Origin: Sulfobacillus thermosulfidooxidans
Lineage (GTDB): Bacteria; Bacillota; Sulfobacillia; Sulfobacillales; Sulfobacillaceae
Assembly (NCBI RefSeq): GCF_001280565.1
Contig: NZ_LGRO01000001.1
Location: 2,666,001-2,730,000, forward strand
DNA: 64,000 nt
Reading direction: 5' to 3'
The notes under the pieces are model-generated. The model saw nothing but the letters and a program-made list of their open reading frames with translations, was not told the origin of the DNA and did not search any database. Shown here piece after piece: positions 23,489 through 41,550 of the stretch. Made by a program: the position numbers and the translations under genes. Each line of letters begins with the position of its first letter. Within the stretch, counting starts at the first letter, position 1.

Positions 23489-23928
23489 GGTCTCGCTATC
23501 TCTTCATAGACCCATGGCATTTTGATTTTATATTTGACATGAACCGGACAACTGGTTGTGAATAAAATTTCATCAGGACATGCAAATTTATCATTCTAAA
23601 CTAGGCTTGGTCTAGGATATAGTAAACATATCTTAAATATTTCATCGTGTGGCGAGGATTTGCATTAGATATGACATCAACGATACAGAAGTACGTCCTT
23701 AAAGTGGAGGTGACATGAAATTCACGATAAAATAGGATATTAAACGAAAAACACACAAAATGCAATCAAACCTTTGTTCATCCGGCTGAATTCGCGCGAT
23801 TCTTACTGTCGGAATAATCGGGAGTATGCTATACTAAATTCAACCTGAAGCACCTTCCCTACGAATTTCTCCTTTCCCACTTATCTCTGCCGGTCTCTGT
23901 TTTCGTTCCCATGAACGGAGGGATGACC
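23489..23928. other. 440-base intergenic region before the sporulation operon
   Basis: No gene is supported here. It contains an extended -10 promoter candidate at 23827-23835 and a seven-codon-length frame with a GGAGGTGA site (23715-23735). A CTAGG direct repeat (about 23601-23616) is the only other visible pattern. Base composition is noticeably more AT-rich than in the flanking genes, as expected of a regulatory region. Confidence 0.5.
23827..23835 (+). promoter_or_regulatory. Extended -10 promoter candidate before yhbH-spoVR-prkA
   Basis: TGCTATACT fits TGnTATAmT and lies about 95 bases before the first start codon. It is preceded by GTCGGAATAATCGGGAG, almost the same block as the one before the promoter at 10551. 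The -35 position has no TTGACA. Confidence 0.5.
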
Positions 23929-24969: not shown

Positions 24970-25008
24970 GAGCATGTTTTTGGTGTCAAGGACCTGGAGG
25001 TGATAACA

Positions 25009-26358: not shown

Positions 26359-26359
26359 T

Positions 26360-28261
26360 ATGGCACGATTTGATACAGATTGGTTAACCAAACACCAACC
26401 CCCTCAGGGGGCATGGACATGGGAAGGCACGTTTGCGGATTACCTGATTAAGGTGCAACAAACGCCGTCCATCGCCGATTTGGCCCATGCCCGCATCTAC
26501 CGGATGATTATGTCGCACGGGGTTGAGAAGCTTGAGGGACAAGAAGTTCCCCGATATAAATTCTTTAGTCAAGACATTTTCGGTATTGACGACACCATTA
26601 ATGAAATCGTCGAGTATTTTTCGGCTGCGGCACGTGGGATGGATATTAGACGCCGGATTTTGTTAATGATGGGGAGTCCCGGCACCGGAAAATCGACCAT
26701 TACCGCAATTTTAAAAAAGGGATTGGAAGAATACTCCCGGACCGATGAGGGGGCCCTTTATGCCATTAGTTTTTGTCCCCAACAAGAAGAACCATTACAT
26801 TTATTGCCGGAGGCTGCCCGCCGCGAATTTATGCAAGAAACCGGTGTGACGATTGAAGGCGATTTATGTCCTTATTGCCAGTGGATGATTGATCATGAAT
26901 ATCAAGGACGCTTACAAGAAGTGCCCGTCAAACGCGTCTTAATTTCTGAATCGCGCAGAATCGGCATTGGGACTTTTGCTCCTTCGGATAGCAAGGTTCA
27001 GGACATTAGCGAACTTGTAGGTTCGATGGATCTCTCGACAATTTCACGCTATGGTTCGGAATCTGATCCCCGTGCGTACCGGTTTGATGGAGCGTTCAAT
27101 GCGGCTAACCGGGGAATTATGGAGTTTATAGAAATGTTAAAAGCCCAACCAGATTTTCTGCATGGGTTATTGACATTGGCCCAGGAGCGAAAGATTAAAG
27201 TGGGACGTTTTGGCTTGTTTGATGCCGATGAAGCCATTATTGCCCATACCAATGAAAATGAATTTGAACGTTTTGTCAGCAACAAGGCGTATGAGGCGTT
27301 GCATAACCGGGTCCTGTTAATTAAAGTGCCGTATAACCTGACCGTCAGTCAAGAAATCCGGACCTATCAAAAGATGATGAACCTGGGAGGACAAAAACTC
27401 GGTAAGCACATTGCGCCGAATACGCTCAAAGTGGCGGCAATGTTTGGCGTCGGTACAAGACTCGCGCGAGATGCCAAATTTTCCATCAAGGAAAAACTCA
27501 CACTTTATGATGGCAAAGAGTTACCTGATGTGCAGCAACGGGAAATCAACCGGGTTCGGGAACTGGCTCGTAAGCAAGGTGAAGGATTTCAAGGCATTTC
27601 GCCCCGGCATATTCTAGATGCCTTGTCTTATGCTATGGCGAGTGATAAAGAGCCTTGCGTCACCCCTACTGCGATGTTGCGGGCTATTCGGGAAAGCTTT
27701 GAGCAGCACATTACGCAGGTCAAAAACCAAGATTTATTGGAAGCGCTGAAAGCGACCCATGAATTATATGATGAAGCCGCCAAAAATGAGATTCAAAGGG
27801 CCTTTGTCGATTCGTTTCAAGATGCGGCGCAGTTATTGTATGACAACTATTTGGAACATGCTGAAGCTCGTATCATGCATTCGACGGTTAAAGACCCGGT
27901 TACGGGAGAAGAAGTCGAACCCAACGAAAAGATTTTGCAAGATCTGGAGAAGGCCCTTGGCATTAGTGATGCCGCGGCCACGGCATTTCGCCAAGAGATG
28001 GTGAATAAGGCAGGAGCCATGGCCCGCAGAGGCCAATCACTCAGTTGGGATTCCCATCCCAAAATGAAGGAGGCCATTGAAAAGAAATTATTTGCCGATG
28101 TGGCCAACCTTGTCAAAGTCACGACGTCCACGAAAGTGTTGAACGATCAACAAAAAAACCGGGTCATGGAGGTTAAGCGGCGGTTAATTGATGATATGGG
28201 ATATTGCGAGCATTGTGCTCAAGAGCTGTTGGATTATGTAGGCTATTTGTTGACCAAATAA
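26360..28261 (+). CDS. prkA: PrkA family serine protein kinase/AAA+ protein
   Basis: A 633-residue protein with an N-terminal AAA+ module and a C-terminal region distantly like protein kinases. The P-loop is GSPGTGKST (105-113). A segment with CPYCQW and downstream CEHCAQ supplies paired cysteines. In Bacillus subtilis PrkA affects sporulation; the AAA+ part has been described as ATP-dependent protease-like in some reports, so the activity is debated. ATG 26360 follows AAGGAGGG with good spacing and lies one base past the spoVR stop; an upstream ATG at 26306 is inside spoVR and is not needed. Confidence 0.93.
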   Translation: MARFDTDWLTKHQPPQGAWTWEGTFADYLIKVQQTPSIADLAHARIYRMIMSHGVEKLEGQEVPRYKFFSQDIFGIDDTINEIVEYFSAAARGMDIRRRILLMMGSPGTGKSTITAILKKGLEEYSRTDEGALYAISFCPQQEEPLHLLPEAARREFMQETGVTIEGDLCPYCQWMIDHEYQGRLQEVPVKRVLISESRRIGIGTFAPSDSKVQDISELVGSMDLSTISRYGSESDPRAYRFDGAFNAANRGIMEFIEMLKAQPDFLHGLLTLAQERKIKVGRFGLFDADEAIIAHTNENEFERFVSNKAYEALHNRVLLIKVPYNLTVSQEIRTYQKMMNLGGQKLGKHIAPNTLKVAAMFGVGTRLARDAKFSIKEKLTLYDGKELPDVQQREINRVRELARKQGEGFQGISPRHILDALSYAMASDKEPCVTPTAMLRAIRESFEQHITQVKNQDLLEALKATHELYDEAAKNEIQRAFVDSFQDAAQLLYDNYLEHAEARIMHSTVKDPVTGEEVEPNEKILQDLEKALGISDAAATAFRQEMVNKAGAMARRGQSLSWDSHPKMKEAIEKKLFADVANLVKVTTSTKVLNDQQKNRVMEVKRRLIDDMGYCEHCAQELLDYVGYLLTK

Positions 28262-28316: not shown

Positions 28317-28344
28317 TGAAGCCATGGATTAATCCATGGCTTCA
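28317..28344. promoter_or_regulatory. Perfect 28-base palindrome upstream of 28375
   Basis: TGAAGCCATGGA-TTAA-TCCATGGCTTCA is exactly self-complementary. It can form a hairpin with a 12-base stem and TTAA loop, but no T run follows, so a factor-independent terminator is unlikely. It lies between a TATACT box at 28296-28301 and the ribosome site of the next gene. It could be an operator or a 5' mRNA hairpin. Confidence 0.55.
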
Positions 28345-28374
28345 AGAATCATTGGGTTTAGGAGGGTATTTTTT

Positions 28375-28749
28375 ATGGGAAAGTCCATTGCCTGGATTCT
28401 AGGCGGCCTTGTCGTAGTGGTGGGGTCATTTTTGATGACCGATGCTGTGCATGTTTGGGGACTTAACCAGCGCTATGCCGTCAGCATCGAAAATCCCGAG
28501 GCCGGATCGGCTTCGGCGTATGAAGTCAAAGTCTATGTGCCAGCCGGAAACGGTCAAATTACTTATCAAATCAATCATGCCGGTCTTGTTAATAAAGTGA
28601 CCGTGAATGAACAACCGACGGCACGGTGGGTAAACTTAGGAACATTTTCTTCGAAGGACCAAGGGAATTTTACGGTTGAAGAATTGAATGTTCCAGAGCG
28701 GACTCAAGGCCCGTCGGCAGGACCATTAACGCAGTTTATTCCTCAATAA
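28375..28749 (+). CDS. Hypothetical membrane-anchored protein, 124 residues
   Basis: The N-terminus (KSIAWILGGLVVVVGSFLM) is a single membrane anchor or uncleaved signal; the remainder is a small beta-rich extracytoplasmic domain with no cysteine. ATG 28375 is 7 bases after TTAGGAGGG; an upstream ATG at 28336 lies within the palindrome and is rejected. The family is not recognised. A TATACT box and the palindrome upstream, with a terminator at 28780, suggest that it is its own transcription unit. Confidence 0.7.
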   Translation: MGKSIAWILGGLVVVVGSFLMTDAVHVWGLNQRYAVSIENPEAGSASAYEVKVYVPAGNGQITYQINHAGLVNKVTVNEQPTARWVNLGTFSSKDQGNFTVEELNVPERTQGPSAGPLTQFIPQ

Positions 28750-29046: not shown

Positions 29047-30285
29047 ATGGATTTCAAACCGCTCCGTTTTATCTTTTTGACCCAATATTATCCACCAGAA
29101 CCTGGGGCTGCATCATTGCGGTTAGAAGCTATGGCTCAGGAACTGACCCGAAGAGGACATTCGGTGGTGGTGGTGACGGCATTGCCTCATCATCTGGGCA
29201 CCGGGGCAAAACGCCAACCGTTTATGGTGCGCGAAACGATTCGCGGCATTGAGGTTGTTCGTATGTGGATTTGGCGTATTTCACCCACCAAAAGATTTTG
29301 GTGGCGTCTGCTCAATTATTTTTCGTTTGTGGTAACAAGTTTTTGGGGACTCCGCCAATTTTCGCCCCCGGATTATTTACTGGTAGAATCCCCTCCGTTA
29401 TTTTTGGGAATTACAGCACGTTTGTATTCCAAGTTCTATCATGTGCCTTATATCTTATCGATCTCCGATCTCTGGCCAGAATCGGCTGTTGCTTTGGGCC
29501 TGGTTAAAAATCCTTGGTTAATCCGGGTAACAAAGGGGTTAGAACTGTCGTTGTATCGCCATGCCCATTATGTTTCTACGGTTACCCTGGGCATTCGACA
29601 GGCGGTGATTGATACTCAGACTATCGAGCCAAGCCGCGTGCTATTTTTTCCCAATGGCGTAGACTTGGATCAGTTTCCTCAATTGCCTGCTCAAGAGTCG
29701 TTGCGGCGAAAATTTGGTGGACCGGAGACGAAAATTTTTCTTTATCCGGGCACTTTAGGTTATGCGCAAGGGTTGGACGTTATCATTGATGCCGCAGTAC
29801 ATCTTAAAAACGAACCGGATATTGTTTTTGTCCTGGTCGGGGAAGGACCCGTAAAACAACATTTGCTTCAGCGAGTGCAAACGGAAGGCCTGACTAATGT
29901 TTTTTTCGAGGCATTGCAACCAGTTGAAAAAATGCCGGAATATTTTGCAATTTCAAGAGCGGTTGTGGTGCCGTTGCGCAAGCACCCGCTATTTCTTGGT
30001 GCCCGTCCTTCTAAAGTGTTTCCGGCCTGGTCCGCTAAAATTCCGATTATCTATGTCGGAGAAGGGGAAATGGCGGAACTGGTTCGCAAATCAGCAGGAG
30101 GGATGGTGGTGCCGCCTGAAGATGGCGAGGGTTTAGCCAATGCGGTAATGCACTTAGCGCATATGGAGGAGGAGTCGTGGAAACAAATGGGACAACGGGG
30201 CTGGCAATTTGTTCATGACCACTATACCTGGCAACATATTGCTGATGAATGGTTAAAGGGGATTCAACCCCGTCCGGGCCTATGA
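29047..30285 (+). CDS. Family 4 glycosyltransferase (WcaI-like)
   Basis: A 412-residue GT-B enzyme. The N-terminus (FLTQYYPPEPGAASLRLEAMA) is the acceptor-domain signature of colanic-acid-type GT4 enzymes such as WcaI. The donor domain has KIFLYPGTLGYAQGLDVII, FVLVGEGPVKQHL and then ISRAVVVPLRKHPLFLGARPSK. The usual E-x7-E pair is less obvious than in other GT4 genes here. It should add a hexose to a polyprenyl-linked chain at the inner membrane face. It is coupled to the next glycosyltransferase by a four-base ATGA overlap. Confidence 0.86.
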   Translation: MDFKPLRFIFLTQYYPPEPGAASLRLEAMAQELTRRGHSVVVVTALPHHLGTGAKRQPFMVRETIRGIEVVRMWIWRISPTKRFWWRLLNYFSFVVTSFWGLRQFSPPDYLLVESPPLFLGITARLYSKFYHVPYILSISDLWPESAVALGLVKNPWLIRVTKGLELSLYRHAHYVSTVTLGIRQAVIDTQTIEPSRVLFFPNGVDLDQFPQLPAQESLRRKFGGPETKIFLYPGTLGYAQGLDVIIDAAVHLKNEPDIVFVLVGEGPVKQHLLQRVQTEGLTNVFFEALQPVEKMPEYFAISRAVVVPLRKHPLFLGARPSKVFPAWSAKIPIIYVGEGEMAELVRKSAGGMVVPPEDGEGLANAVMHLAHMEEESWKQMGQRGWQFVHDHYTWQHIADEWLKGIQPRPGL

Positions 30286-31358
30286 CCAAACCCCGTCTTC
30301 TACTCATCGGCCATTACCCCTTAGATACGCTTGACCGTGCCCCCAAAGTGCGTATTATGCATATGGCTGAATCACTCGCGAAAATCAGTACTCTGACCAT
30401 TATCGCCGGCACGCGTCAAGAGCGAGCGATATGGTTTGATGAGGCATTGAAACGCGGAGTCTTGGACGCGATTGATGCGGTTTATGTGGAAAGTGCCAGT
30501 TCCTTCGCAACGCCAGCTGATATAAGATTTCTTTGGGCAGTCAAACGCAAAGCGATCCCGCTGGCCATTTACGTTCGGGATTACTACCAACGTTTTCCCA
30601 AATTATATCCACCCAAAAATTATCGTGAACGCGTGATGAAATGGCTTTATGTGCTCACGCTTTTCGCATACCGCTATCTTGCCGATATCATTTATGTGCC
30701 CTCAAGAGCACTCGGTCAGTTGGTCGGAGGAAAAGAGATTCGTCTTCTTCCTCCTGGTGGGGTTTTATATCCTGTGCCGCCCTTAATAAAACCGAGCCAA
30801 CAACCCGAACCATGGATTTTGTATGTGGGCGCAGGCGGTCCTTATGATGGAGTTGATTTATTAATCAAAGCCGTGCACAAACTTCATCAATCGATGCCGG
30901 ATGTGCATCTGGCATTGGTGATGCGACGTGCGGAATGGCCTAAATTATCCCCAGTTTCTTATATCACACTGGTTGAAGCTCACGGTCAGGGTCTCGAATA
31001 TTGGTATGCTCGTGCCTCCGTGGCTGTCATTCCCCGGCGCGATACGGCCTATACCCGCTTGGCATGGCCCGTTAAATTGATGGATTATCTGTCGCATGGG
31101 CTTGGCGTAATAGTGACCGATCAATCCGAAGCAGCACGGTTTGTGGAACGCTATCAGGTCGGCCAAATGAGCCAGCCTGATAGCGAATCTTTAGCTAAGA
31201 CCCTAGAAAGCTGCTTGCGTTCACCCCAGTTGCTGGATCTCTATGCTCACAATGCGCGCCGGGTTATTGAACAAGAACATAGTTGGGATCACCGGGCGCA
31301 AACATTAGTGGCAGATTTGCTGGCTAAGAAATCCTTAGGAACTAAACGTGGCCTGTGA
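30282..31358 (+). CDS. Glycosyltransferase, GT-B fold
   Basis: A 358-residue protein whose C-terminal half fits a GT-B donor domain (PWILYVGAGGPYDGVDLLI, then IPRRDTAYTRLAWPVKLMDYL and SHGLGVIVTD). The N-terminal half is less typical of family 4. ATG 30282 overlaps the previous stop as ATGA and is clearly better than the longer frame from 30249. The last 24 bases overlap the end of the convergent lipoprotein gene. The donor sugar is unknown; pairing with the preceding gene suggests that they build one disaccharide unit. Confidence 0.78.
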   Translation: MTKPRLLLIGHYPLDTLDRAPKVRIMHMAESLAKISTLTIIAGTRQERAIWFDEALKRGVLDAIDAVYVESASSFATPADIRFLWAVKRKAIPLAIYVRDYYQRFPKLYPPKNYRERVMKWLYVLTLFAYRYLADIIYVPSRALGQLVGGKEIRLLPPGGVLYPVPPLIKPSQQPEPWILYVGAGGPYDGVDLLIKAVHKLHQSMPDVHLALVMRRAEWPKLSPVSYITLVEAHGQGLEYWYARASVAVIPRRDTAYTRLAWPVKLMDYLSHGLGVIVTDQSEAARFVERYQVGQMSQPDSESLAKTLESCLRSPQLLDLYAHNARRVIEQEHSWDHRAQTLVADLLAKKSLGTKRGL

Positions 31359-31997
31359 GCTGGTCGGGTCAGTGGTGCCATTAAACACCAGTTCATAGGA
31401 TGACCGGGCCGGGACAAGAACGGTGATGTCTCCTGTCAAAGGTCTATCTGGCAGTATTTGGGTTACGTCGGCGCTAGGACTTTTTGGTGTAGGAGGATAA
31501 GGGAATAAGGAGTTATTTTCATTTAAACCCTTTAAGGAAAAATCATTCCAGCTATAAGATCTGTTGCCAGCTAGCACACTGACGTCATTTAAGGCAAGAC
31601 CAATTATCCCTGAGGTAGGATTTTCCACCTTAAGGGTAAGCAAATCAACTTGTAACGATTGCCCATTAATTGTGGTGGTCCCCTCATTTGTGGCGTGTTC
31701 AACCACAATGTGAAGCTCCTGGTACGATCCGGCTCCCGGCGGCGGAGGCGGGGTTACCGATTGTTCTTGGCTTGGTGTGGTGGATGAGGGACTTGATGAT
31801 GAAGATAGAGAACTTGGCGCCACACTGGGTGAGGGGCTCAAAGAGGGCGAGGGGGACGATGTTGGCACTGCCGAGGAATGGGTTTGAACTGTGTGATGGG
31901 TGGTGGATGCGCTGTGAAAGCCGCATCCCGCCAAAATCATCATCAGAGGTAGAGGCACTGCTAACAACCGGTAAGAGCGTTTCGACACACGTATCAT
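31335..31997 (-). CDS. Lipoprotein with Ser/Pro-rich linker
   Basis: A 220-residue predicted lipoprotein. The lipobox LAGC places the lipidated cysteine at residue 25. Residues about 28-95 are almost wholly Ser, Thr and Pro, a flexible wall-spanning linker, and residues about 96-220 form a beta-rich domain resembling DUF4352-type extracellular modules (LKVENPTSGIIGLALNDVSV). The function is unknown. It lies 82 bases downstream of, and in the same direction as, the GH18 protein gene, so the two may share a transcript. Its end overlaps the convergent glycosyltransferase gene by 24 bases. Confidence 0.75.
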   Translation of the reverse strand: MIRVSKRSYRLLAVPLPLMMILAGCGFHSASTTHHTVQTHSSAVPTSSPSPSLSPSPSVAPSSLSSSSSPSSTTPSQEQSVTPPPPPGAGSYQELHIVVEHATNEGTTTINGQSLQVDLLTLKVENPTSGIIGLALNDVSVLAGNRSYSWNDFSLKGLNENNSLFPYPPTPKSPSADVTQILPDRPLTGDITVLVPARSSYELVFNGTTDPTSSQATFSS

Positions 31998-32079
31998 AGC
32001 AAGACACCTTTCTGTAACGATGCTGAGTAGGCTAATAGCTGAATCTTTTCACGCATTCGATCATAGCACGAATGTCGAA

Positions 32080-35000
32080 TTATGGCTGGCCATGAAATAC
32101 CGGAGTTAATTGGGCCATATCTGTCCAATATCCGGTCGTTTCAAACGGCAAGCGCCATGCAGCAATGCCGCCCAAATGATTGGCTAATGCCAATTCGATC
32201 CGGTCTTTAATGGACCTAGATGTTTCGGACCAATAAATATTTTGGCCAATATTCCACTGATTAATGACTTGCTGCAAGGCTTGGGCTGTTGCTGCGTCAT
32301 AGACTCCGGGCGTTTGGGTGTTTACCGAAAAATCCTGTTGAAAAGCCTCGAGGGCACTTTGAGTGGCCGAGCCAAAATACCCATCGGTCCATAGCCAGGG
32401 CCTTGGGGTTTGACCGTTTTGGAGGGCGTACTGCAGCAACACAATATTTAACAGATTTTGTAAGTTTGCAACTTCGGGGGAATAGGCATTCCCATTTTGG
32501 ATAGACAGCCCAGGGGATGGTGCTTGGGCCAAAGGACCCGCCGTAAATACGATCTCTTTTTCCACGGGATCCCATAATGGAGTGATATTTTGTTGTTGTA
32601 ATAAGCTTTGGATGGCGCGGTAACTCACGGCTCCTTGTCCCACCACACCGTTATTGGTGACGGTCCATTCGTGTCCATAAGGAGCCACTCCCAAAATAAT
32701 TTGACTGGGATTGACGCCCTGTGCTAGGGCGTTTTGTACTAGTTGGCTGACCCAAGGATATCCCGCGGTAGGTCCTGGCCACGTGCTCGAGTTATGCTCG
32801 GGATAAGCCATCATATTTATGAAATTGACATAGGGAGCTATGGCCTGATAGTTGTAGATGGTGTCCGGATAACTTGATGGATAAACAGCGACCATCAGTA
32901 GTTTATTGTCTTGATGCAGGGCAGTCCCGAGTTGCTGAATAAAATTCGTATATTGCTGTGACGCCTGTTGTAAGCTAAGACCGCCATCCCCGTTGTTTTC
33001 AAAATCGATGGTGATTCCATCGAAATTATATTGATTGACCAGGTTGACAATTTGCTGGACAAGTGATGACACATCTTGTGGTGTGGAGATGGGACCATTA
33101 CCAGGACTGTAATAGTTGCCAATAGAGGGTAACACCATGACCCCTTCTTGATGGGCTTGTTGGGTCACATATTGGACGTTGTTTAGTCCGTTGATCAACG
33201 GGGCTGCGTAAGAGCCTTGGGTGGACCAACTGGTAATATTCCAATTACCACTGGCGTCTTGAGACAAATTAAACCAGGCAGGATTAATCACCGACAATTC
33301 GTTGCCATGTTGAAGAAGATCTTCAAATGACGAATTGTTGACACCATTAGGGAAATTGTCCACAAAAAAGCCATAACCCATTGAGAGAAACCCGTTAAAT
33401 TGCTGTAACGGTGTGGGAGCCGTGGAACTCGTGGCTGTGATAGGCGATTCGATCACGCTTACCACATTGGACGGGATGGACAAAGACGGCCCGTCTCCAA
33501 AACTATAGGCTTGGCCTTGGCTGGTAATAATATCGTAGCCTTGTTGGTCAAAACTGGGAAGGAGTTCTTCCGCACCCGTGGCATTTGGGGATGGTTCGCC
33601 ATAAATTTTGGCGTCCCCGAATGCCGTGACGGTACCGTTAGACTGTAAGATCCAATATCCTTGCCCGTCTAATGTTGGCACGATTTGCACCGCGGGGGAA
33701 GGCGGTGGACTAGACGGACTAGATGGATCAGGGGATTGCGACGATATTCCTGGTATTGTGGTGCTTTCTAAATCGCTGCCCATTTTAAGTCCGGCAATGA
33801 CTTGGGATGATGGAACGGTCACGACATTTTGAAAACTGTAACCTAAATTATACAAAACGGTAGGATTGGGAATGTGCCGCAATACGCCGTTTTGGTCGAG
33901 ATAGACGGGACTTTGACCTTGAACTTGTAATAGAGTTCCTGTGGGGAAAGCCCGGGAAGGTGTCGTCAAAGTCGGTCCTATAGGCAAGTTGGGCAGCGAG
34001 GGGACTTTGAGGACTTGATTCCATTGATACCCCATTTCTAAAAATACATTCGCATTGGCAATATGTTGAAGAACCCCATTATTAACCATATAGATTTGGG
34101 GCGTGCCTTGTTGTTGTATTAAAGTTCCCGATGGATAATACGTCACGGGAGTATTCAATGTCGGACCCATAGGCCAGTTAGCCCCTAATTGGCTAACGCT
34201 TACAATAGGCTGTCCAATCAGACCCATTTGCACAAATGTTGACCAGTTGCCAATATGATGCAAAACGCCCTGCATCACCAAATAAATAGCATGATGCCCC
34301 GTCACTTGAAGCAATGTGCCCGACGGATAAGGCGTTACGAGAGGGTTGCCAATATTCATACCTGTCAATGAGGGCACGACCTGAATCTGATTCCACTGGT
34401 AACCCATGGAAAGAAACATGGCCGCACTAGGTATATGATGCAGGGTGCCGTTTTCGACTACCCAGACAGGAGCCGTGCCTTGTTGTTGAACAAGTGTTCC
34501 ATTGGGATAGGATGCTGTTGAATTGGTGGTGGCATTGCTTGTCGAGGTGGCTGATGTACTCAGAGAGCCATAATTTTTCGCATCCCCGAATGCTTCGACT
34601 TGTCCATTTTGACTGACAATCCAATAACCTTGGCCATCTGGTGTGGTGGCAATACTTGAGACATTTGAATTCGTGGCATTGCCATAACTCGTAGCATTGC
34701 CCAGAGCATAGACAGTGCCGTTTTGGGTTAATACATAAGCGCCTTGACCTGACGGGGTCACTGCCATGGACAGAGCTCGGGCACTACCGGATGGTAAGGA
34801 CGGGAACGATGTAGCATCACCAAACGCGTAAATATGACCATCCTGCGTTAAAATCCAATATCCACGGTAGTCTGGAGTTGGAACAAGTTGGATGGCTGGT
34901 GATGAGGTGGAGGCATTAATGGTGGTCAAATCCCCATAAAACGGGACATTGCCATTCACCGTAACCTGTCCATTAGAAGACAAAGCATAAGAACCACGGC

Positions 35001-35376
35001 TGATGCCTAAAAAGGTTATGCTATTGGAGGTAAGACCTTGCGATGTGGTGACGGTAATGGGACCAGGATCTGCCGTTTGCGGAATGGAAACGGTAATTGC
35101 GGTATTGGACCACGATAAAATGGGCGCATATTGCCCGTCAATCGTTACCGTGGCCGCAGTGGTGCCAAATCCTTGCCCATTGATGGTCAAATCATTTTGA
35201 CTTTGGGATAATACATACCCACTGATATTGACCGGGCTTTGCGCAAATGCACCAGACATGGCGATTTGACTTAAAATCAGTGCGGATGAAATGAGGGCCA
35301 TTTTTGGCCCGGCAGTTCGGGAAAGAGATTTGCGAAACAAAGATCGGCGATGGCGCCTGACCCGCGTTTGTCTCAT
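32080..35376 (-). CDS. Large secreted GH18 glycosidase with beta-propeller-like and tandem repeats
   Basis: A 1098-residue exported protein. A basic N-terminus and hydrophobic core (about 26-46) form a signal peptide. Residues about 48-125 look like an IPT/TIG domain. Residues 127-275 and 562-640 carry propeller-like repeats (GYWILTQDGHIYAFGDA). Residues about 289-540 hold four copies of a roughly 63-residue repeat (YPSGTLLQVTG). The GH18 domain spans about 660-1095, with the catalytic motif DGITIDFE at 786-793 (acid Glu793). A peptidoglycan-binding module (about 960-1040; WTDGYFGSATQSALEAFQQD) is inserted within the GH18 barrel. It probably cleaves cell-wall or spore glycans, like YaaH/SleL enzymes, or extracellular chitin; the substrate is inferred. 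Confidence 0.85.
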   Translation of the reverse strand: MRQTRVRRHRRSLFRKSLSRTAGPKMALISSALILSQIAMSGAFAQSPVNISGYVLSQSQNDLTINGQGFGTTAATVTIDGQYAPILSWSNTAITVSIPQTADPGPITVTTSQGLTSNSITFLGISRGSYALSSNGQVTVNGNVPFYGDLTTINASTSSPAIQLVPTPDYRGYWILTQDGHIYAFGDATSFPSLPSGSARALSMAVTPSGQGAYVLTQNGTVYALGNATSYGNATNSNVSSIATTPDGQGYWIVSQNGQVEAFGDAKNYGSLSTSATSTSNATTNSTASYPNGTLVQQQGTAPVWVVENGTLHHIPSAAMFLSMGYQWNQIQVVPSLTGMNIGNPLVTPYPSGTLLQVTGHHAIYLVMQGVLHHIGNWSTFVQMGLIGQPIVSVSQLGANWPMGPTLNTPVTYYPSGTLIQQQGTPQIYMVNNGVLQHIANANVFLEMGYQWNQVLKVPSLPNLPIGPTLTTPSRAFPTGTLLQVQGQSPVYLDQNGVLRHIPNPTVLYNLGYSFQNVVTVPSSQVIAGLKMGSDLESTTIPGISSQSPDPSSPSSPPPSPAVQIVPTLDGQGYWILQSNGTVTAFGDAKIYGEPSPNATGAEELLPSFDQQGYDIITSQGQAYSFGDGPSLSIPSNVVSVIESPITATSSTAPTPLQQFNGFLSMGYGFFVDNFPNGVNNSSFEDLLQHGNELSVINPAWFNLSQDASGNWNITSWSTQGSYAAPLINGLNNVQYVTQQAHQEGVMVLPSIGNYYSPGNGPISTPQDVSSLVQQIVNLVNQYNFDGITIDFENNGDGGLSLQQASQQYTNFIQQLGTALHQDNKLLMVAVYPSSYPDTIYNYQAIAPYVNFINMMAYPEHNSSTWPGPTAGYPWVSQLVQNALAQGVNPSQIILGVAPYGHEWTVTNNGVVGQGAVSYRAIQSLLQQQNITPLWDPVEKEIVFTAGPLAQAPSPGLSIQNGNAYSPEVANLQNLLNIVLLQYALQNGQTPRPWLWTDGYFGSATQSALEAFQQDFSVNTQTPGVYDAATAQALQQVINQWNIGQNIYWSETSRSIKDRIELALANHLGGIAAWRLPFETTGYWTDMAQLTPVFHGQP
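33757..34509 (-). repeat. Four imperfect ~190-base tandem repeats coding for a ~63-residue unit
   Basis: Within the GH18 gene, four consecutive units begin YPNGTLVQQQG, YPSGTLLQVTG, YPSGTLIQQQG and FPTGTLLQVQG. Each goes on to a G-x-L-x-HI motif and a MGYQWNQ-like end. They are diverged at DNA level, so this is old internal duplication rather than recent slippage. Confidence 0.75.
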
Positions 35377-35675
35377 ACGTGGAAATCCTCCTAGGATGTG
35401 CTCAACAGGCTGTGCCTAAAACCGACAACTTTTAACAATAACATCTACTGTATACGGCACACTTCGCGAAATATCCTCCTTTGGTCCGGAATTTATTTCC
35501 GTATTGTGTGGGCTAATGGATCAGAGATTTTCAGAGTGTTGGAAGACAGCGACCAAAATGTCCACAAAGATTTAAATGCTTGGGCGGTTTTTAAGACAAT
35601 TGCTTGGTCTTGTCGTATGATAAAGAACGGTTTAGATACAAGGACCGGTAAGACGGTATAGAAGGAGGGAATGGT
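35377..35675. other. Intergenic region between divergent GH18 and glycosyltransferase genes
   Basis: About 300 bases with no supported gene. The open frame 35398-35661 has no ribosome site or family signal. A promoter candidate for the rightward operon lies at 35610-35638. The GH18 gene has AGGAGGA before its ATG on the minus strand, but I see no clear promoter for it. Confidence 0.5.
35610..35638 (+). promoter_or_regulatory. Promoter candidate of the rightward glycosyltransferase operon
   Basis: TTGTCG and TAGATA are separated by exactly 17 bases, 38 bases before the CTG start at 35676. Each box has two mismatches to the sigma-70/sigma-A consensus. Confidence 0.4.
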
Positions 35676-36770
35676 CTGCGGATTATAGTCGATGCCCTGC
35701 TTTATCAACCCCAGTCAGCAGGTATTGGGCGTTACATCGGATCTTTATTAGCTGCGTATATAAGCCAATATAACGCGATAGATTACCTTGACGTGTTGGT
35801 TTTGCCAGGGCAGAAGATTCCCGGTGTAGAGATGATCTATCCTCCGGACTCTTTGGATAGCAGTCGTAAAAGGATTTGGTATGAACAGTGGCGATTACCT
35901 CTGTGGCTATCTACACGCTCCTATGACGTGGTACATTTTCCCGACTATCAATTGCCTGTCTTGCGTCCACTCAAGCATACGGTCATCACCGTCCATGATC
36001 TTGTGGCATTTAAATATCCCCAGATGTTTCCGTGGGCGCAGTCTGTGGTGAAGAGAGAATTGATGAAACAGTCGGTGAAAATTGCCGACCATATCATTGT
36101 CCCGAGTGAGGCCACGGCGGGGGATCTGCAAGAAATTTTACATGTGCCCCGGGAAAAAATCTCGGTGATCGCGCATGGTGTAACGTGCCAAATCCGCAAA
36201 AACCTGGACAATGTGCGCGACCGCCCCTATTTCTTGGCGGTGGGAACCATCGAACCCCGAAAAAATTTTGAAGGGGTGATTCATGCCTTTGCCGAATTTG
36301 TTCATGCCAATCATTTGCAAGGGCAGGTCGATTTAGTTATTGCTGGAAAAAAGGGATGGTTGTATGCCCCTGTGTTAGAGGCTCCCAAAAAATGGAACAT
36401 TGAAGAGTCCGTCTCTTTGTTAGAATACGTTTCAGATGAGACATTACAAGCGCTGTATCAACATAGCATAGCGCTGGTCTATCCAAGCTTTTATGAGGGA
36501 TTTGGTTTGCCTATATTAGAAGCGATGGCTCAGGGGACACCGGTGATTTCTTCGAATCAGGGAGCGTTAGCAGAAGTGTGCGGCGACGCCGCACTCATTG
36601 TTGATCCCAAAAATATTGACGAGCTCGCGCAATATATGCTGGATTTATGGGAAAAGCCGACATTACGGGAAGCGTTAAGGCAAAAAGGGCAAAAGCGGGC
36701 ACAGTCTTATACCTGGGTTCAGGCAGCACAAAAGACCCGTGAGGTTTACCAGCACGTGGCCCAATTATAA
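35676..36770 (+). CDS. Family 4 glycosyltransferase starting at CTG
   Basis: A 364-residue GT-B enzyme. The frame is open upstream of the first standard start (GTG 35793), and the missing part translates as a typical GT4 N-terminus (RIIVDALLYQPQSAGIGRYI). The only start consistent with it is CTG at 35676, 6 bases after AGGAGGG; the nearby ATG at 35671 is in another frame and stops after five codons. The donor domain has GTIEPRKNFEGVI and SFYEGFGLPILEAMAQG, with the E-x7-E pair. It resembles mannosyltransferases of the MtfA/WbaZ kind. It heads a cluster of glycan genes. Confidence 0.83.
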   Translation: MRIIVDALLYQPQSAGIGRYIGSLLAAYISQYNAIDYLDVLVLPGQKIPGVEMIYPPDSLDSSRKRIWYEQWRLPLWLSTRSYDVVHFPDYQLPVLRPLKHTVITVHDLVAFKYPQMFPWAQSVVKRELMKQSVKIADHIIVPSEATAGDLQEILHVPREKISVIAHGVTCQIRKNLDNVRDRPYFLAVGTIEPRKNFEGVIHAFAEFVHANHLQGQVDLVIAGKKGWLYAPVLEAPKKWNIEESVSLLEYVSDETLQALYQHSIALVYPSFYEGFGLPILEAMAQGTPVISSNQGALAEVCGDAALIVDPKNIDELAQYMLDLWEKPTLREALRQKGQKRAQSYTWVQAAQKTREVYQHVAQL

Positions 36771-36793
36771 ATTGCCAGGCGGGAGGATGTTTT

Positions 36794-38254
36794 ATGCGAG
36801 CCGAAGTAACCAAAATCCGGGAACAAATTTTTGCTAAAACGATGTGGGCTCCATTGATTATTGTTGCATTGGGTGCCGTCATCGCTATTCGTTGGGGAAT
36901 GTTGGGAGCCATTATCTTTTTTGCGGGATACATTTGGTTGGCCACATTATCTTTGCCTCTTGCCGCCTTGCTTTATATTCTGGCGGCTCCCTTTCCCATC
37001 GGCATGATTGTACACCATCATAAATTTTATGTCGCCGATTTTATGGCCATTGTGCTGGCAATCAAATTGTTCATGGCGAATGTCCATAAAGGATTCAACG
37101 GTCTTGTGGACACGTTTTTACCGAAAGCTTTTCGCTTACCCCTTCTCTTTCTTTTGTTTCTGTCCGTGTTATCGTTAGGGGAAAGCCTCAGTCGTTTTGG
37201 CACCGTCATTAAAATTCTTGAGTATGTTGAGTTCTTTGTCGTTATGGTCGCCGTGTTTCGGAATGCGGGAACCGACGAAAGAATCTGGAACGGATATTTT
37301 ACCGCGCTCTTTGTGGCGGTGAGTGCGGTGACGGTATATGGACTGTATCAATTTTTGTTTCAGCTGGGACCGGTTTATAACATTGTGGATGGCCATCACG
37401 TGAGAGCGACCGGATTTTTTGGACAGCCCAATGTATTTGGGGCGTTTAACGATGAAACTTTTCCCTTGGCAGTGGCTTTATTGACTTTAGGACCTCGCTA
37501 TCTCAAGAAGGGATGGCTGGTGGTTGCTACGGTCCTCACAGCTTTAGGAGCTGTCCTGTCCTATTCCCGGGGGTCATGGGTGGCCGATGCGGCAGCTGTC
37601 TTTTTCATGTTGGTGTTGGTAGCCGTGACAAAACCCAAACAGATGAAAACGTTCGCCGCATACGGGATTGGCATTCCCATCATCATGTTTATTACGGTAT
37701 TTTTCTTGGGAAAGACCGATTTAAGTCATACGGCTTTATTCATCGGAGCCCATAAAAATACCATCGAACGGCTCAAAACCACTGTTACCGCGCTTTTAAA
37801 TCCCCAAGGGCATTTTGATACGGACCAACGGCTATTAATTTGGAAATCAGCCCTACAAGCGATTCGGCAGCATCCCCTCTTAGGCGTGGGGTTAGGGAAC
37901 TTTCATTTGTTTATCCAACAACATCCTCCCAAAGGACTTGCCGCCGTTCCTCCGATGGCGCATGACCTATATCTGGAATGGGGAGCGGATTTAGGCGTGG
38001 GCGGAATCATCGCGGCACTATGGTTTGAATGGTCATGGATTAGTAAGGCCGTGCGAATGATCCGGCAAAAGGCAATGGGTCTGAGTGCATATGGATATGC
38101 GGCCTTGATGGGATCTTTTGGCACCGCTGTGGCCTTTATTGTGCATAATTGGGTCGATTTTTTAATTGATCAAGGAGTGATTGTCCCGTTATTAATCGCC
38201 TTAGCTTTTATTGCCGCACAATATGACCGTTATCGAAATGGGTCGGTTTCCTAA
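36794..38254 (+). CDS. O-antigen ligase/polymerase family membrane protein
   Basis: A 486-residue protein with about eleven hydrophobic segments. The large outer loop and the motif HPLLGVGLGNFHLFIQQH (about residues 357-374) identify the Wzy_C/O-antigen ligase superfamily, whose members polymerise or transfer polyprenyl-linked glycans on the outer face of the membrane. In a Gram-positive it could be a Wzy-type polymerase or a ligase attaching glycan to protein or wall. ATG 36794 is 7 bases after GGAGG. Its last base is shared with the next gene's start codon (TAATG). Confidence 0.85.
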   Translation: MRAEVTKIREQIFAKTMWAPLIIVALGAVIAIRWGMLGAIIFFAGYIWLATLSLPLAALLYILAAPFPIGMIVHHHKFYVADFMAIVLAIKLFMANVHKGFNGLVDTFLPKAFRLPLLFLLFLSVLSLGESLSRFGTVIKILEYVEFFVVMVAVFRNAGTDERIWNGYFTALFVAVSAVTVYGLYQFLFQLGPVYNIVDGHHVRATGFFGQPNVFGAFNDETFPLAVALLTLGPRYLKKGWLVVATVLTALGAVLSYSRGSWVADAAAVFFMLVLVAVTKPKQMKTFAAYGIGIPIIMFITVFFLGKTDLSHTALFIGAHKNTIERLKTTVTALLNPQGHFDTDQRLLIWKSALQAIRQHPLLGVGLGNFHLFIQQHPPKGLAAVPPMAHDLYLEWGADLGVGGIIAALWFEWSWISKAVRMIRQKAMGLSAYGYAALMGSFGTAVAFIVHNWVDFLIDQGVIVPLLIALAFIAAQYDRYRNGSVS

Positions 38255-39360
38255 TGCGGGTCGCTTTAGTTCATGACTGGCTCGTGACCATGGGAGGGGC
38301 AGAGCGGGTCTTAGAGGCTTTAGCCCAGATGTATCCTGATGCTCCCATTTACACAGGGGTAGTGGATTTTGATCATTTATCGCCGGGATTGCGGCAAAAA
38401 CACATTATTCCCTCCCTGGTACAAAGATTGCCCCGGGCTAAGAGATGGTATAATCGTTATTTGCCATTTCTGCTTTATGGATTCGAGCAATTCGATCTAT
38501 CGCAATATGATTTGGTGATTTCATCGTCGGCGGCCGTGGCTAAAGGAGTGATTACTCCGGTAGATACGGTGCATGTGGCCTATGTGCACACGCCTATGCG
38601 TTATGCCTGGGATTTGTATCATGATTACCGCAATCGGGAAGCCAAGGGAATCACAAAACGGCTGATGGGTCCTGTCTTTCATTATGTGAGAATGTGGGAC
38701 AGGCTAGCCGCTGATCGGCCTGATGTGTTGGTAGCCAATTCCCATTTGGTGCAACGCCGAATTCTAAAGCATTATCACCGGCACGCGCAAATTGTGTATC
38801 CGCCGGTGGCAATTGATCGCTTTGAGGTAAAAAAGCCGGGGTCCTATTACCTGGTCTTATCCCGTTTAGTTGCCTATAAGCGGATTGATTTAGCTATTGA
38901 AGCGGCCAATCAGATGGGAATTCCCTTAGTCGTGGCGGGGGATGGGCCAGAACGGGTTCATTTAAAACACATGGCGGGAAACACTATTAAATTCACTGGC
39001 GCTGTCAGCGATGACGTGGCCAAGCAACTGGTCGAAAATGCTAAAGCTTTAATTTTTCCGGGGGAAGAGGATTTTGGAATTGTGCCCATAGAGATGCAGG
39101 CAGCCGGTCACCCCGTTATTGCCTTTGGGCGAGGCGGCGTGTTAGATACCGTTATCGATGGGGAAACCGGCGTGTTTTTTCATAGCCAGGATGTACAGCA
39201 CCTTATCCAGGCCATTCGAACAGCGGAAAATATGGCATGGGACGCCCAGAAGATTCGCCGTCACAGTGAAAAATTTCGGCCAGAACGGTTTCGTGAAGCC
39301 ATGTCTTTGGTTATCGATGAGGCGTTGTCTCATCATGAACCGAGTCCTAAATCTCAATGA
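38254..39360 (+). CDS. Family 4 glycosyltransferase (WbaZ-like)
   Basis: A 368-residue GT-B enzyme. The N-terminus ALVHDWLVTMGGAERVLEAL is characteristic of WbaZ/ExpE-type mannosyl- or galactosyltransferases. Further motifs are VAYVHTPMRYAWD, YYLVLSRLVAYKRIDLAIEA and FPGEEDFGIVPIEMQAAGHP, where E-x7-E is complete. The start overlaps the polymerase stop as TAATG with no strong ribosome site, so translation is probably coupled. It should extend a lipid-linked oligosaccharide; donor not known. Confidence 0.88.
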   Translation: MRVALVHDWLVTMGGAERVLEALAQMYPDAPIYTGVVDFDHLSPGLRQKHIIPSLVQRLPRAKRWYNRYLPFLLYGFEQFDLSQYDLVISSSAAVAKGVITPVDTVHVAYVHTPMRYAWDLYHDYRNREAKGITKRLMGPVFHYVRMWDRLAADRPDVLVANSHLVQRRILKHYHRHAQIVYPPVAIDRFEVKKPGSYYLVLSRLVAYKRIDLAIEAANQMGIPLVVAGDGPERVHLKHMAGNTIKFTGAVSDDVAKQLVENAKALIFPGEEDFGIVPIEMQAAGHPVIAFGRGGVLDTVIDGETGVFFHSQDVQHLIQAIRTAENMAWDAQKIRRHSEKFRPERFREAMSLVIDEALSHHEPSPKSQ

Positions 39361-39466
39361 CACAGAGCGAAATAGAGGGTCTATATCACCTGACTTACTG
39401 ATGCGGTATGATAACATTAGACATTTTTAGACAGAAACACTATTAGAGGGGATAACTCCAACCTTC

Positions 39467-40570
39467 ATGAAGATTGCTATGGATATTTCGATTATGGAAG
39501 AGTGCCGAACGGGTACCGAGGAATATACAGAAGGTCTGGTATGGGGACTGAATCGGGTCGGAACCCAAGTCTTAGGAGTCGGACGTCAAGGTCAGGCTTT
39601 ATTGCCCGATCAAACTTGTTTGGGCTTATCTCCTCGGCATAAACGGTCTTTGTGGCATAAATGGTGGTGGGAGAATGTTGGCATTTTATCCAGCCCCAAA
39701 GATGTATCCTTGGTGCATATTCCTTATATGATGCATCCACCCAGGCCCTTAGCCGTCCCGACAGTGGTCACCGTGCATGATTTGATCCCTTACCGTCTTC
39801 AAGCCTATCATGGTCGCCTGCGGGAACGATTGTATTTCGGTCAGATTCGGAAATATCTTCCTTTGGCCAGTCAAATCGTTGCGATATCTCAAGCCACGTA
39901 CCGCGATATTGCAGATTTTTTTCCCGGCTGGATTGCAAAGGTCACGGTAATCCCCAATGGCGTGCATCCCGATTATTTTCGCCCGGTTGCGGTAGAACAA
40001 ATGGAACAACTGACCAGCACCTATGGGCTGGTTAAGCGTCCGCGTCTTTTATACGTGGGAGGCTATGATCCGAGAAAAAATGTTCAGACATTGCTTGAAG
40101 CCTGCCAAAAAGTTTTTGCACGCTTGAAGGACGGGGAATTGGTCTTAGTGGGGGCGTTAAATCATGAAGGGACGACGAGGCTTGTGAAGGAACTCGGTAT
40201 GGAAGATCGGGTGATTCTAACACCCTATTTGACTCGCCGTAATGTGGTAGCCCTCTACCAAGCGGCGGATTTGTTTGTTTATCCCTCAATGTATGAAGGC
40301 TTTGGCCTGCCCCCGGCGCAAGCTCTGGCCATGGGAATTCCCGTTATTGCCGGTGATATTTCGGCTGTGTCCGAGGTGGTAGGCGATTCCGGGTTATTAG
40401 TGCCCCCCAAGGAGGTTGATGCCTGGGTGGACACCATTATGAAAGTCATTCAAACACCCGCCCTGGCGCAAAAAATGGCGGCACGGGGACGGGCCCGTGC
40501 GGAAGATTTTAGCTGGGAAAATATTGCTCGACAATATCAAAAACTTTATCATCGCTTAGCCCGGGAATAG
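39467..40570 (+). CDS. Family 4 glycosyltransferase
   Basis: A 367-residue GT-B enzyme. MKIAMDISIMEECRTGTEEYTEGL is a family N-terminus with a T-G-x-E-E-Y variant of the usual G-I-G-R-Y motif. The C-terminal half has YVGGYDPRKNVQTLLEA and SMYEGFGLPPAQALAMG, although the second Glu of E-x7-E is replaced by Gln here (EGFGLPPAQ), an oddity worth noting. GAGGGGAT lies 14 bases before the ATG, a long spacing. A 106-base gap precedes the gene, so it may have its own promoter. Donor and acceptor are unknown. Confidence 0.86.
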   Translation: MKIAMDISIMEECRTGTEEYTEGLVWGLNRVGTQVLGVGRQGQALLPDQTCLGLSPRHKRSLWHKWWWENVGILSSPKDVSLVHIPYMMHPPRPLAVPTVVTVHDLIPYRLQAYHGRLRERLYFGQIRKYLPLASQIVAISQATYRDIADFFPGWIAKVTVIPNGVHPDYFRPVAVEQMEQLTSTYGLVKRPRLLYVGGYDPRKNVQTLLEACQKVFARLKDGELVLVGALNHEGTTRLVKELGMEDRVILTPYLTRRNVVALYQAADLFVYPSMYEGFGLPPAQALAMGIPVIAGDISAVSEVVGDSGLLVPPKEVDAWVDTIMKVIQTPALAQKMAARGRARAEDFSWENIARQYQKLYHRLARE

Positions 40571-40623
40571 CCCTAGGGGCATCAGGAGGTTACCAACAAA
40601 CTGGGAATCGAGGTAAATGGACA

Positions 40624-41550
40624 ATGCATTTATTAATCACAGGCGGTGCAGGATTTATTGGATCCCATCTGTGTGAAAAGGCGCTCGACTACGGCCACCG
40701 CGTTACGGTTGTCGATAATCTGAGTCAAGGTCTGAGGGAAAATATTCCTCAAGCGGCAGGGTTTGTTTATGGTGACATTTTACAACCAGAAGTGTGGCTA
40801 GATAAAATTGGGCCCGTGGACGTCGTCATCCATTTGGCTGCACAAATTAGCGTTCCGGCATCCGAAATTGATCCGCTAACCGATTTGCGTCTCAATTTGG
40901 AGGGTACTCTCCGAATGTTGATGGCAGCCAAGGCCTTAGGCGCGACTCAGTTCCGGACAGCATCCTCAGCCGCTGTCTATGGTGATGTGCTGCATTTGCC
41001 CCTTCAAGAGGACGGCCCGGTCCATCCGATTTCGTTTTATGGATGGTCGAAATATACGGCGGAGCAATATGTGTTTCATTTTGCTGAGATGCATGGACTC
41101 GATGCCGTCGTATTTCGTTTAGCCAATGTTTATGGGCCAAGACAACGTACCCAGGGCGAAGGGGGCGTGGTAGCGGTTTTTTGTGAAGGCATGGCCCAAA
41201 ACCGTGTGCTGGAAATTCACGGGGATGGACAGCAAACCAGGGATTTTATCTATGTGGGAGATGTGGCACGAGCTTTTTTGCACCGCTTAGAGAATCCCGG
41301 GCCCAAAACGGTTTATAACGTGAGTACCGAGACACGCACGTCCGTGTATGATCTGTTTCTGGCACTGGCCAAAATAGCAGGAAAACCGCAAGATGGTTAT
41401 CATTTGGCGCCTATGAGGCTTGGGGATATCCATGATAGCGTGTTGTCTCAAGAAAAGGCGAGAGCTTGGGGATTTGTTCCTAAGACTTCGTTAGAGGAAG
41501 GCTTAGAGCAAACATGGCAATATTTCCTCAACCGGGAGCTTAAGCCCTAA
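40624..41550 (+). CDS. NAD-dependent sugar epimerase/dehydratase (GalE-like SDR)
   Basis: A 308-residue extended short-chain dehydrogenase. The cofactor loop is ITGGAGFIGSHL, the active-site YxxxK is YGWSK, and RDFIYVGDVARAFLHRLE lies in the C-terminal substrate region. It is close in plan to UDP-glucose 4-epimerases, supplying galactose-type donors to the neighbouring glycosyltransferases; another C4-epimerase or a GDP-sugar specificity cannot be excluded. GAGGT precedes the ATG by about 10 bases. Its stop shares a base with the next start (TAATG). Confidence 0.86.
   Translation: MHLLITGGAGFIGSHLCEKALDYGHRVTVVDNLSQGLRENIPQAAGFVYGDILQPEVWLDKIGPVDVVIHLAAQISVPASEIDPLTDLRLNLEGTLRMLMAAKALGATQFRTASSAAVYGDVLHLPLQEDGPVHPISFYGWSKYTAEQYVFHFAEMHGLDAVVFRLANVYGPRQRTQGEGGVVAVFCEGMAQNRVLEIHGDGQQTRDFIYVGDVARAFLHRLENPGPKTVYNVSTETRTSVYDLFLALAKIAGKPQDGYHLAPMRLGDIHDSVLSQEKARAWGFVPKTSLEEGLEQTWQYFLNRELKP

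Follow-up and report, generated by a model that had tools for sequence, protein, structure and literature searches.

A predicted peptidoglycan-binding domain nested in the barrel of a family 18 glycoside hydrolase of Sulfobacillus thermosulfidooxidans

A 64,000-nucleotide stretch of the genome of Sulfobacillus thermosulfidooxidans (contig NZ_LGRO01000001.1, positions 2,666,001 to 2,730,000; here called the window, whose first letter is position 1) contains an open reading frame at 32080-35376 on the minus strand that encodes a protein of 1098 amino acids. From N- to C-terminus this protein has a signal peptide, an IPT domain, a propeller split by four repeats of approximately 63 residues and a glycoside hydrolase family 18 (GH18) region with a PG_binding_1 domain. 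What is new is a GH18 enzyme with a PG_binding domain at the site of the chitinase insertion domain (CID), conserved in one bacterial order and carrying EccB-like repeats inside its propeller. We give an even chance to the reading that this is a wall-bound hydrolase acting on peptidoglycan, where it would be held by a clamp of its own and by a membrane-anchored partner; the substrate and the partnership are what we infer. The parts of the GH18 region are as follows.

32530-33396, minus strand: GH18 part A, residues 661-949 (Pfam PF00704; aligned by VIA-align to SleL, PDB 4s3j, with Z 32.5 over residues 661-1098)
33004-33006, minus strand: catalytic D791
32998-33000, minus strand: catalytic E793
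32248-32529, minus strand: insert with the PG_binding_1 three-helix domain, residues 950-1043 (Pfam, structural model, spacing and hidden Markov model tests)
32098-32247, minus strand: GH18 part B, residues 1044-1093 (partner strand, helix alpha7, strand beta8 with W1074, helix alpha8)

Evidence for the position of the insert came from profile matches and from an AlphaFold2 model of the whole protein (29 sequences, mean predicted local distance difference test score (pLDDT) 80.3, predicted template modelling score (pTM) 0.47). Pfam matches GH18 at residues 691-1076 (E 4.3e-32) and PG_binding_1 (PF01471) at residues 967-1034, with 30.6 bits against a cut-off of 23. In the model, barrel strand 7 (893-897) is followed by a small alpha+beta element with strands at 901-907, 910-917, 934-936 and 941-949 and a helix at 919-928. 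Three PG_binding helices follow at 967-986, 1003-1015 and 1028-1040, in pLDDT blocks of 83-96 for residues 961-1040, and the chain then continues through a strand at 1044-1050 to helix 7 (1053-1065), strand 8 (1070-1074) and helix 8. The PG_binding module is in this model topologically within the GH18 barrel domain, between strand 7 and helix 7, and its identity as PG_binding_1 is given both by a match above the curated cut-off and by the three-helix fold. A preliminary description made from the sequence of this DNA had placed the module at about 32257-32499, inside the barrel and beside its last strand, and had named structure prediction as a check. The AlphaFold2 model agrees that the module is inside the barrel and not outside it and moves it from beside the last strand to the segment between strand 7 and helix 7, with the Pfam match at 32275-32478 and the whole insert at 32248-32529.

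The assignment of the surrounding chain to GH18 is given by both the profile match and a TIM-barrel fold. In phmmer searches the PDB chains 4q6t and 5jh8 each match as two pieces that flank residues 950-1040 or thereabouts. VIA-align returned GH18 structures with Z 30-32.5 over approximately residues 661-1098 of the model, with SleL (4s3j, 32.5), an insect chitinase (5y2a, 32.3) and 5jh8 (31.9) tied; of 5jh8, 301 of 317 residues aligned, spread over model residues 662-1092.

The CID has been described as lying between strand 7 and helix 7, where it forms a wall of the substrate cleft, and as having an FKBP-like fold of five or six strands and one helix (PMC2805709, in the part of the text available). 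Insertion at this site is thus in itself not new. The segment studied here resembles the CID of GH18 subfamily A in its place and in having five strands and one helix (901-949 and 1044-1050) but differs in its last hairpin, where strands 941-949 and 1044-1050 are separated by an insert of approximately 94 residues with a helical PG_binding_1 domain. Because the element around the insert consists of five strands and one helix, the PG_binding domain appears, from the predicted secondary structure, to be nested in a CID-like element rather than to replace the CID. With the three-helix domain present, the segment does not correspond to an FKBP-like CID that is free of any further domain.

Nested and plain enzymes were compared using two profiles, one of GH18 stripped of the insert and one of the insert alone, on 121 GH18 open reading frames from the gathered loci, with the plain GH18s of the same genome (L005-L008) as controls. 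Duplicates had been removed from this set, in which many genes of loci L042-L075 stand as copies from other loci. W904, which follows strand 7, and W1074 in strand 8 are 168-195 residues apart in 43 nested frames (three re-fetched copies, L120-L122, included) and 66-97 residues apart in 75 plain ones, two ranges that do not overlap; the three remaining frames had no anchor and were left out of the count. A tree of 82 rows calculated without the insert (method 'quick', with long-branch warnings; 42 of the 75 plain rows, the others thinned by hand) has one branch that parts 40 nested from 42 plain GH18s (SH-like approximate likelihood ratio test 96). This is compatible with a single origin of the nested GH18s, without proving it.

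Of the 154 genomes of the class that were searched, 42 belong to the window's order, counting the own genome and all those listed under its genus, family or order. Nested genes (profile A1, E <= 1e-50) were found in 35 of these 42 and in none of the other 112, in a tally that may miss divergent nested genes, given that the GH18 matches of genomes G015 and G023 reach residue 1089. Among the matches listed from 398 genomes of the phylum, only three genomes of the window's family (G000, G009 and G011) reach nested-gene scores; the next best genome scores E 4e-39 and matches listed elsewhere end by position 278 of the 416 of the model. GH18 matches occur in 22 of 296 genomes from the phylum of a metagenome-assembled genome (MAG) labelled Catenulispora, and all end by position 273. 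Near full-length matches to the 1098-residue plan are present in at least 24 of 61 genomes, own included, and among the matches listed those of the 23 other genomes show 41-94% identity. Matches of this length are more than chance would give, and the proteins with the full plan form a family conserved within one bacterial order.

No match found in Pfam, NCBIfam or PDB searches covers the full plan, the NCBIfam matches being partial and far under cut-off (ChiD, 49.8 bits of 750), and searches of open-licence papers found no description of this protein, of a PG_binding domain inserted in GH18 or of a CID with peptidoglycan binding. The preliminary description's statement that no described protein has this plan therefore stands as far as these databases and that literature go, with two qualifications: the protein is a member of a conserved family and not a one-off, and its insertion uses the known CID site.

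As judged from sequence, a variety of N-terminal modules is joined to the shared nested core. One paralogue in the same genome (L038) has four repeats without a propeller and another (L039) has two stretches that look Ig-like by eye; elsewhere, L070 has an unsplit propeller and an 847-residue protein of L067 has IPT and propeller with a short linker at the place of the four repeats. Tandem gene copies were seen in L071 (4129-7329 and 8742-11960) and L067 (4132-7326 and 10489-13029), the second copy of L067 being without the four repeats. The record name of L070 (JAIMBI010000014.1), 'Actinomycetes bacterium', looks wrong, as the gene is of Sulfobacillus-order type and its open frame of 827 amino acids is equal in size to that of G041, a genome of the same order.

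GH18 enzymes act by substrate-assisted catalysis, and DGxxxDxE is the name of their catalytic motif. In the motif DGITIDFE of the present protein D791 and E793 are invariant in 34 of 34 aligned rows, which gives the catalytic Glu with an Asp two residues before it that is expected of GH18, and the M and Y of the MxY motif and the W and R of strand beta8 are likewise invariant in all 34. With these catalytic, MxY and strand 8 residues all invariant, activity by the substrate-assisted route usual for GH18 is very likely.

The top structural match, though tied, is SleL/YaaH (4s3j and 4s3k, Z 32.5 and 31.8), which shares the GH18 barrel and for which, as for the present enzyme, a peptidoglycan substrate is proposed. 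SleL/YaaH proteins consist of terminal LysM modules and GH18. No LysM is among the Pfam matches of the present protein, which in this respect is not of SleL/YaaH type; SleL is without the insert, whereas the present protein has a nested PG_binding_1 domain, a propeller, repeats and a lipoprotein neighbour. Nearest by sequence are 5jh8, 4q6t and 4wiw, which also lack the first Asp of DxDxE but have no PG_binding domain in the barrel. Within the same genome, L041 (518 amino acids; the same gene as L005) also combines GH18 with PG_binding-type repeats in one protein; these are, however, N-terminal (as judged by eye and from weak matches to the insert profile) and its GH18 is plain, without insert.

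The remaining modules of the protein and the gene downstream of it are listed below. The Pro/Ser linker, the IPT domain and the propeller-like repeats split by four tandem repeats had all been named in the preliminary description, and Pfam, alignment and models bear them out.

35242-35376, minus strand: signal peptide, residues 1-45 (read from the sequence: long basic n-region, AFA before Q46)
35011-35196, minus strand: IPT/TIG domain, residues 61-122 (Pfam PF01833, 26.8 bits, cut-off 20.9)
34552-34998, minus strand: first part of the beta-propeller, residues 127-275, strands of blades 1-4 (two models, structure alignment)
33757-34509, minus strand: four tandem EccB-like repeats of approximately 63 residues, residues 290-540 (sequence alignment, profile comparison)
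34330-34509, 34138-34329, 33949-34137 and 33757-33948, minus strand: repeat units 1, 2, 3 and 4
33694-33738, minus strand: Pro/Ser-rich linker, residues 547-561, after the four repeats and before propeller blade 5 (sequence)
33442-33693, minus strand: second part of the beta-propeller, residues 562-645, blades 5-6 and closing strand (models, structure alignment)
31335-31997, minus strand: downstream lipoprotein gene, 220 amino acids, 82 bp past the stop codon of the enzyme

The AlphaFold2 model contains the signal-peptide helix (24-41), the cleavage site being read by eye from the sequence, and an all-beta IPT/TIG domain; in the linker region, residues 539-557 have pLDDT below 50. The propeller was also examined in a second model (residues 124-660, 24 sequences, pLDDT 82.9). 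Both models show six sets of strands and a closing strand at 640-644. LRP6 (Z 17.5) and the Pizza6 design 6i39 (Z 17.4, 221 of 251 residues) align over positions of approximately 4-522 of the second model, equivalent to residues 127-645 of the protein, and the seven-bladed design 7bid is tied with them at Z 17.0. LRP6 and Pizza6 are six-bladed. The predicted propeller is likewise taken to be six-bladed on a count of its strands. Because these propellers align across residues 127-645, the four repeats are in the model an insertion between blades 4 and 5, with the ring closing around them. The relatives in L067 and L070, in which a propeller occurs without the repeat insert, agree with repeats inserted in the ring.

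The repeat units are 60, 64, 63 and 64 residues long (290-349, 350-413, 414-476 and 477-540), with unit 1 sharing 38%, 58% and 38% identity with units 2, 3 and 4. The full set of four occurs in 29 of 29 sequences of the full-length alignment, which comprises the window's sequence and 28 rows from loci of Sulfobacillus or Bacillota. They are not covered by any Pfam family. A search with the four-repeat profile retrieved nothing from the PDB up to E 10, and one with a single-repeat profile retrieved no EccB chain up to E 1. Foldseek with the second model did match, among propellers, the EccB1 chains 3x3m, 4kk7, 5ebd and 3x3n and the ESX-5 B chains 7nps and 7np7, with E values of 2e-6 to 2e-5, 11-16% identity and poor global superposition. 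EccB is absent from the VIA-align list of the second model, an absence without weight as propellers fill that list. When the repeat profile (A4) was compared by hhalign with EccB units cut by hand (six of nine EccB loci, L189 being left out as divergent) it gave 73.7% for all units together, 33% for R2, 22% for R4 and approximately 3% for R1 and R3, against 0.2-1.8% for eight control stretches; comparison with whole EccB was low, at only 1.8% and 5.6%. With the EccB family profile PF05108 the own genome gives no hit up to E 1, and 2 of 19 repeat modules are weakly matched (best E 0.043), so that the repeats do not fall within EccB as a whole family. An intermediate is provided by L210 (265-1728, plus strand), from the phylum of a Gottesmanbacteria MAG, in which the repeat at residues 231-289 matches PF05108 with E 6.7e-6 and 25.5 bits, below the cut-off of 27. 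The unit-by-unit comparison, the Foldseek matches and this intermediate are what supports a resemblance, still tentative, of the 63-residue repeats to those of EccB, a component of type VII secretion. Both have four related repeats (R1-R4 in EccB); in the present protein, however, these are strictly tandem and lie inside the propeller of a hydrolase, whereas those of EccB are accompanied by a transmembrane helix and interrupted by a central core domain (PMC4769845, available in part). According to the same text, the EccB1 repeats resemble the wall-associated phage protein PlyCB and may bind peptidoglycan, a role suggested by its authors without data.

A search for the repeat in other genomes, which the preliminary description had called for, shows that it recurs in other phyla. 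At E <= 1e-3 it is present in at least 32 of 145 genomes of the phylum of the Gottesmanbacteria MAG, which we take to be Patescibacteria, and in at least 5 of 149 genomes of an actinobacterial set; the four-repeat profile (E <= 1e-5) is matched in the window's phylum by 3 of 199 genomes, of which two belong to the window's family. Sixteen repeat proteins from outside the order were scanned (L204 and L207 being left out), and six of them carry Amidase_2, SpoIID, Peptidase_S11 (three) or LysM. A wall-binding role of the repeats is plausible, and the L210 match raises the idea that EccB may have evolved from a widespread repeat of wall proteins. The repeat proteins of L210, L211, L212, L214, L215 and L216 have in common an N-terminal stretch like PKYLLVxLQKEQSLI, by eye similar to a lysozyme or lytic transglycosylase domain yet without a Pfam match, and three of them run on into a D-Ala-D-Ala carboxypeptidase. 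A family 2 glycosyltransferase from another genome of the phylum (L152, 712-1701, plus strand) ends in one 63-residue repeat. In the own genome, L040 (C1:2501700-2502098) is a secreted-looking protein of 506 amino acids in which two repeats come first and are followed by a region of unassigned kind.

The product of the gene downstream has an LAGC lipobox, a Ser/Pro linker and a C-terminal domain (31338-31733) that is weakly DUF4352-like. Pfam assigns this domain to no family with significance, DUF4352 being matched in 4 of 16 members with a best E of 0.0051, and the two PDB chains retrieved (E 0.23 and 0.87) are not convincing. The lipoprotein family occurs in 29 of the 154 genomes of the class and all 29 also have the nested enzyme. 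Of its 36 members in the class, 34 immediately follow a nested GH18 gene on the same strand, and the lipoprotein gene is present at 34 of 53 nested places (two of the 53, both in genome G033, may be fragments of a single gene). Of the 34 loci L042-L075, 28 contain it, and in L075 the enzyme gene runs off the contig. When gene starts were assigned by script, the distance between the two genes in 28 loci was between -8 and 92 bp, with a 4-bp overlap in five pairs. Of 29 homologues, 28 show the lipobox pattern. The pairing is kept across enzymes of the propeller type, the four-repeat type and the Ig-like type (L059-L061 and L063) and is absent from the own-genome paralogue L039. On this arrangement the enzyme and the lipoprotein probably form a two-gene unit.

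These data suggest a secreted, active GH18 enzyme that would work in the bacterium's own peptidoglycan wall. The nested PG_binding domain would grip the glycan strand beside the cleft while the active site, with E793 as the acid and D791 in a substrate-assisted mechanism, would cut after N-acetylglucosamine. The EccB-like repeats and the propeller may keep the enzyme in the wall, and the lipoprotein, which would be anchored in the membrane and made from the same transcript, may localise or control it. The enzyme would likely serve to turn over or remodel the wall of vegetative cells while the external pH is very low, and possibly also to open the wall for export of the exopolysaccharide (EPS) whose genes flank this copy. 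The cell's own peptidoglycan is the most likely substrate because a peptidoglycan-binding domain would sit in the wall of the cleft and because both the repeats and the lipoprotein point to the cell envelope. A bolder form of this proposal, which we regard as doubtful, is that the two genes make an undescribed wall-remodelling machine, in which a clamp-like GH18, perhaps sliding on glycan, acts with a dedicated lipoprotein, and that the 63-residue repeat is a general, as yet unnamed peptidoglycan-binding repeat shared with EccB and common in Patescibacteria.

Several observations weigh against a peptidoglycan hydrolase of this kind. The position of the first Asp of DxDxE is occupied by Thr789; this Asp is also absent from 4q6t and 5jh8 (Asn) and from 4wiw (Val). 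The GH18 fold does not discriminate peptidoglycan from chitin, insect chitinases scoring within 1 Z of SleL. With a pTM of 0.47 and low-confidence stretches in GH18 (pLDDT 47 for the block 861-870), the relative placement of the domains is not fixed by the model. Binding of peptidoglycan by EccB repeats is without experimental support by the statement of the authors themselves (PMC4769845, in the available part), and ten of the 16 scanned repeat proteins have no peptidoglycan-related Pfam domain: one each has a matrixin protease, a SIR2-like domain, fn3, a glycosyltransferase and a weak EccB match, and five have nothing. No adjoining lipoprotein gene is found at 19 of the 53 nested places. Finally, at least one glycosyltransferase of the EPS cluster is present in the fetched flanks of 14 of 26 loci, which would fit an EPS substrate.

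The gene lies at the edge of this cluster. Around it, at 29047-42680, there is an exopolysaccharide-type set of genes with several glycosyltransferases and a Wzy_C O-antigen ligase or polymerase, the part from 39467 onward being judged from open reading frames and sequence alone. Just upstream of the cluster, at 23911-28261, DUF444, SpoVR and PrkA genes stand in a row, which we take to be a stress or sporulation kinase set. At 28336-28749 a small secreted-looking protein has a sub-threshold match to Golvesin_C (29.7 bits against a cut-off of 31.6), and no RNA family was found in the window at gathering threshold.

This neighbourhood makes EPS the main rival substrate and keeps it a serious alternative, if a rather unlikely one. 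The enzyme, its catalytic residues intact, would then trim or release the cell's own EPS containing N-acetylglucosamine as part of the flanking cluster, the PG_binding domain being merely an anchor to the surface. The glycosyltransferase of 35793 is found in the fetched flanks, which differ in length, of 12 of the 26 loci. However, the lipoprotein gene is found in 23 of them, and 9 of the 26 keep the enzyme-lipoprotein pair with no match to EPS genes in the fetched flanks; the lipoprotein accompanies the enzyme more faithfully than the EPS genes do. The predicted position of the insert, at the cleft wall and not at an end of the protein as for a plain anchor, also argues against this explanation.

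That the protein is a secreted chitinase digesting fungal or other chitin as food is improbable. GH18 chitinases have been counted among the most abundant glycoside hydrolase classes of S. thermosulfidooxidans and the use of fungal lysate has been considered (PMC5418355, in the part available), and the alignments of insect and plant chitinases are almost as good as that of SleL. However, the binding domain in the catalytic unit is a peptidoglycan module, Pfam shows no chitin-binding module in the protein, and pairing with a lipoprotein would be unexpected for a food enzyme.

A sporulation enzyme acting like SleL/YaaH on the cortex or the septal peptidoglycan of the forespore seems no more probable. 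The host lineage does form spores, SleL is the top structural match (though tied), and prkA, spoVR and the DUF444 gene lie upstream. Upstream regions were also scanned with the sigma-E consensus. A sigma-E-like match precedes the gene in the window (GGATATT, 15 bp, TATACAGT; 3 mismatches) and stands at the same place in its nearest relative, L009 (3 mismatches), with that of L045 one base away (4 mismatches). This candidate was rejected as it is not conserved: 17 of the 31 upstream regions scanned contain nothing with up to 4 mismatches, and in other orthologues the matches mostly lie elsewhere, including better matches in L057 (1 mismatch, spacing 13) and L051 (2). In addition, prkA is in the fetched flank of only 4 of the 26 loci, and the protein, unlike SleL, has no LysM. 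By eye, approximately seven Sulfobacillus regions have in common, upstream of the gene at about 35405-35490, AAxAGAGGA, some 20 bp on CCGTA and further down TGTCGG, a block that is possibly the promoter of another sigma factor.

Binding or scaffold modules make up more than half of the protein, but a mainly structural or lectin-like wall protein in which catalysis is unimportant is most improbable, as the catalytic D and E, invariant in all 34 rows, would be unexpected in a lectin-like GH18.

Sulfobacillus is acid-loving, and an enzyme of this kind would work outside the membrane at very low pH. With a binding module at the cleft-wall site, the present protein offers a comparison for how this site sets the substrate choice of GH18 enzymes. 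The repeat may be a wall-binding module in Patescibacteria as well as in EccB, for which such a role has been suggested (PMC4769845, in its available text). The published reading of Sulfobacillus GH18 genes as chitinases appears, in the accessible part of that report, to rest on family assignment (PMC5418355). Should the nested domain and the pairing with a lipoprotein have the meaning suggested here, at least this branch of these genes would encode enzymes of the organism's own wall and not chitinases.

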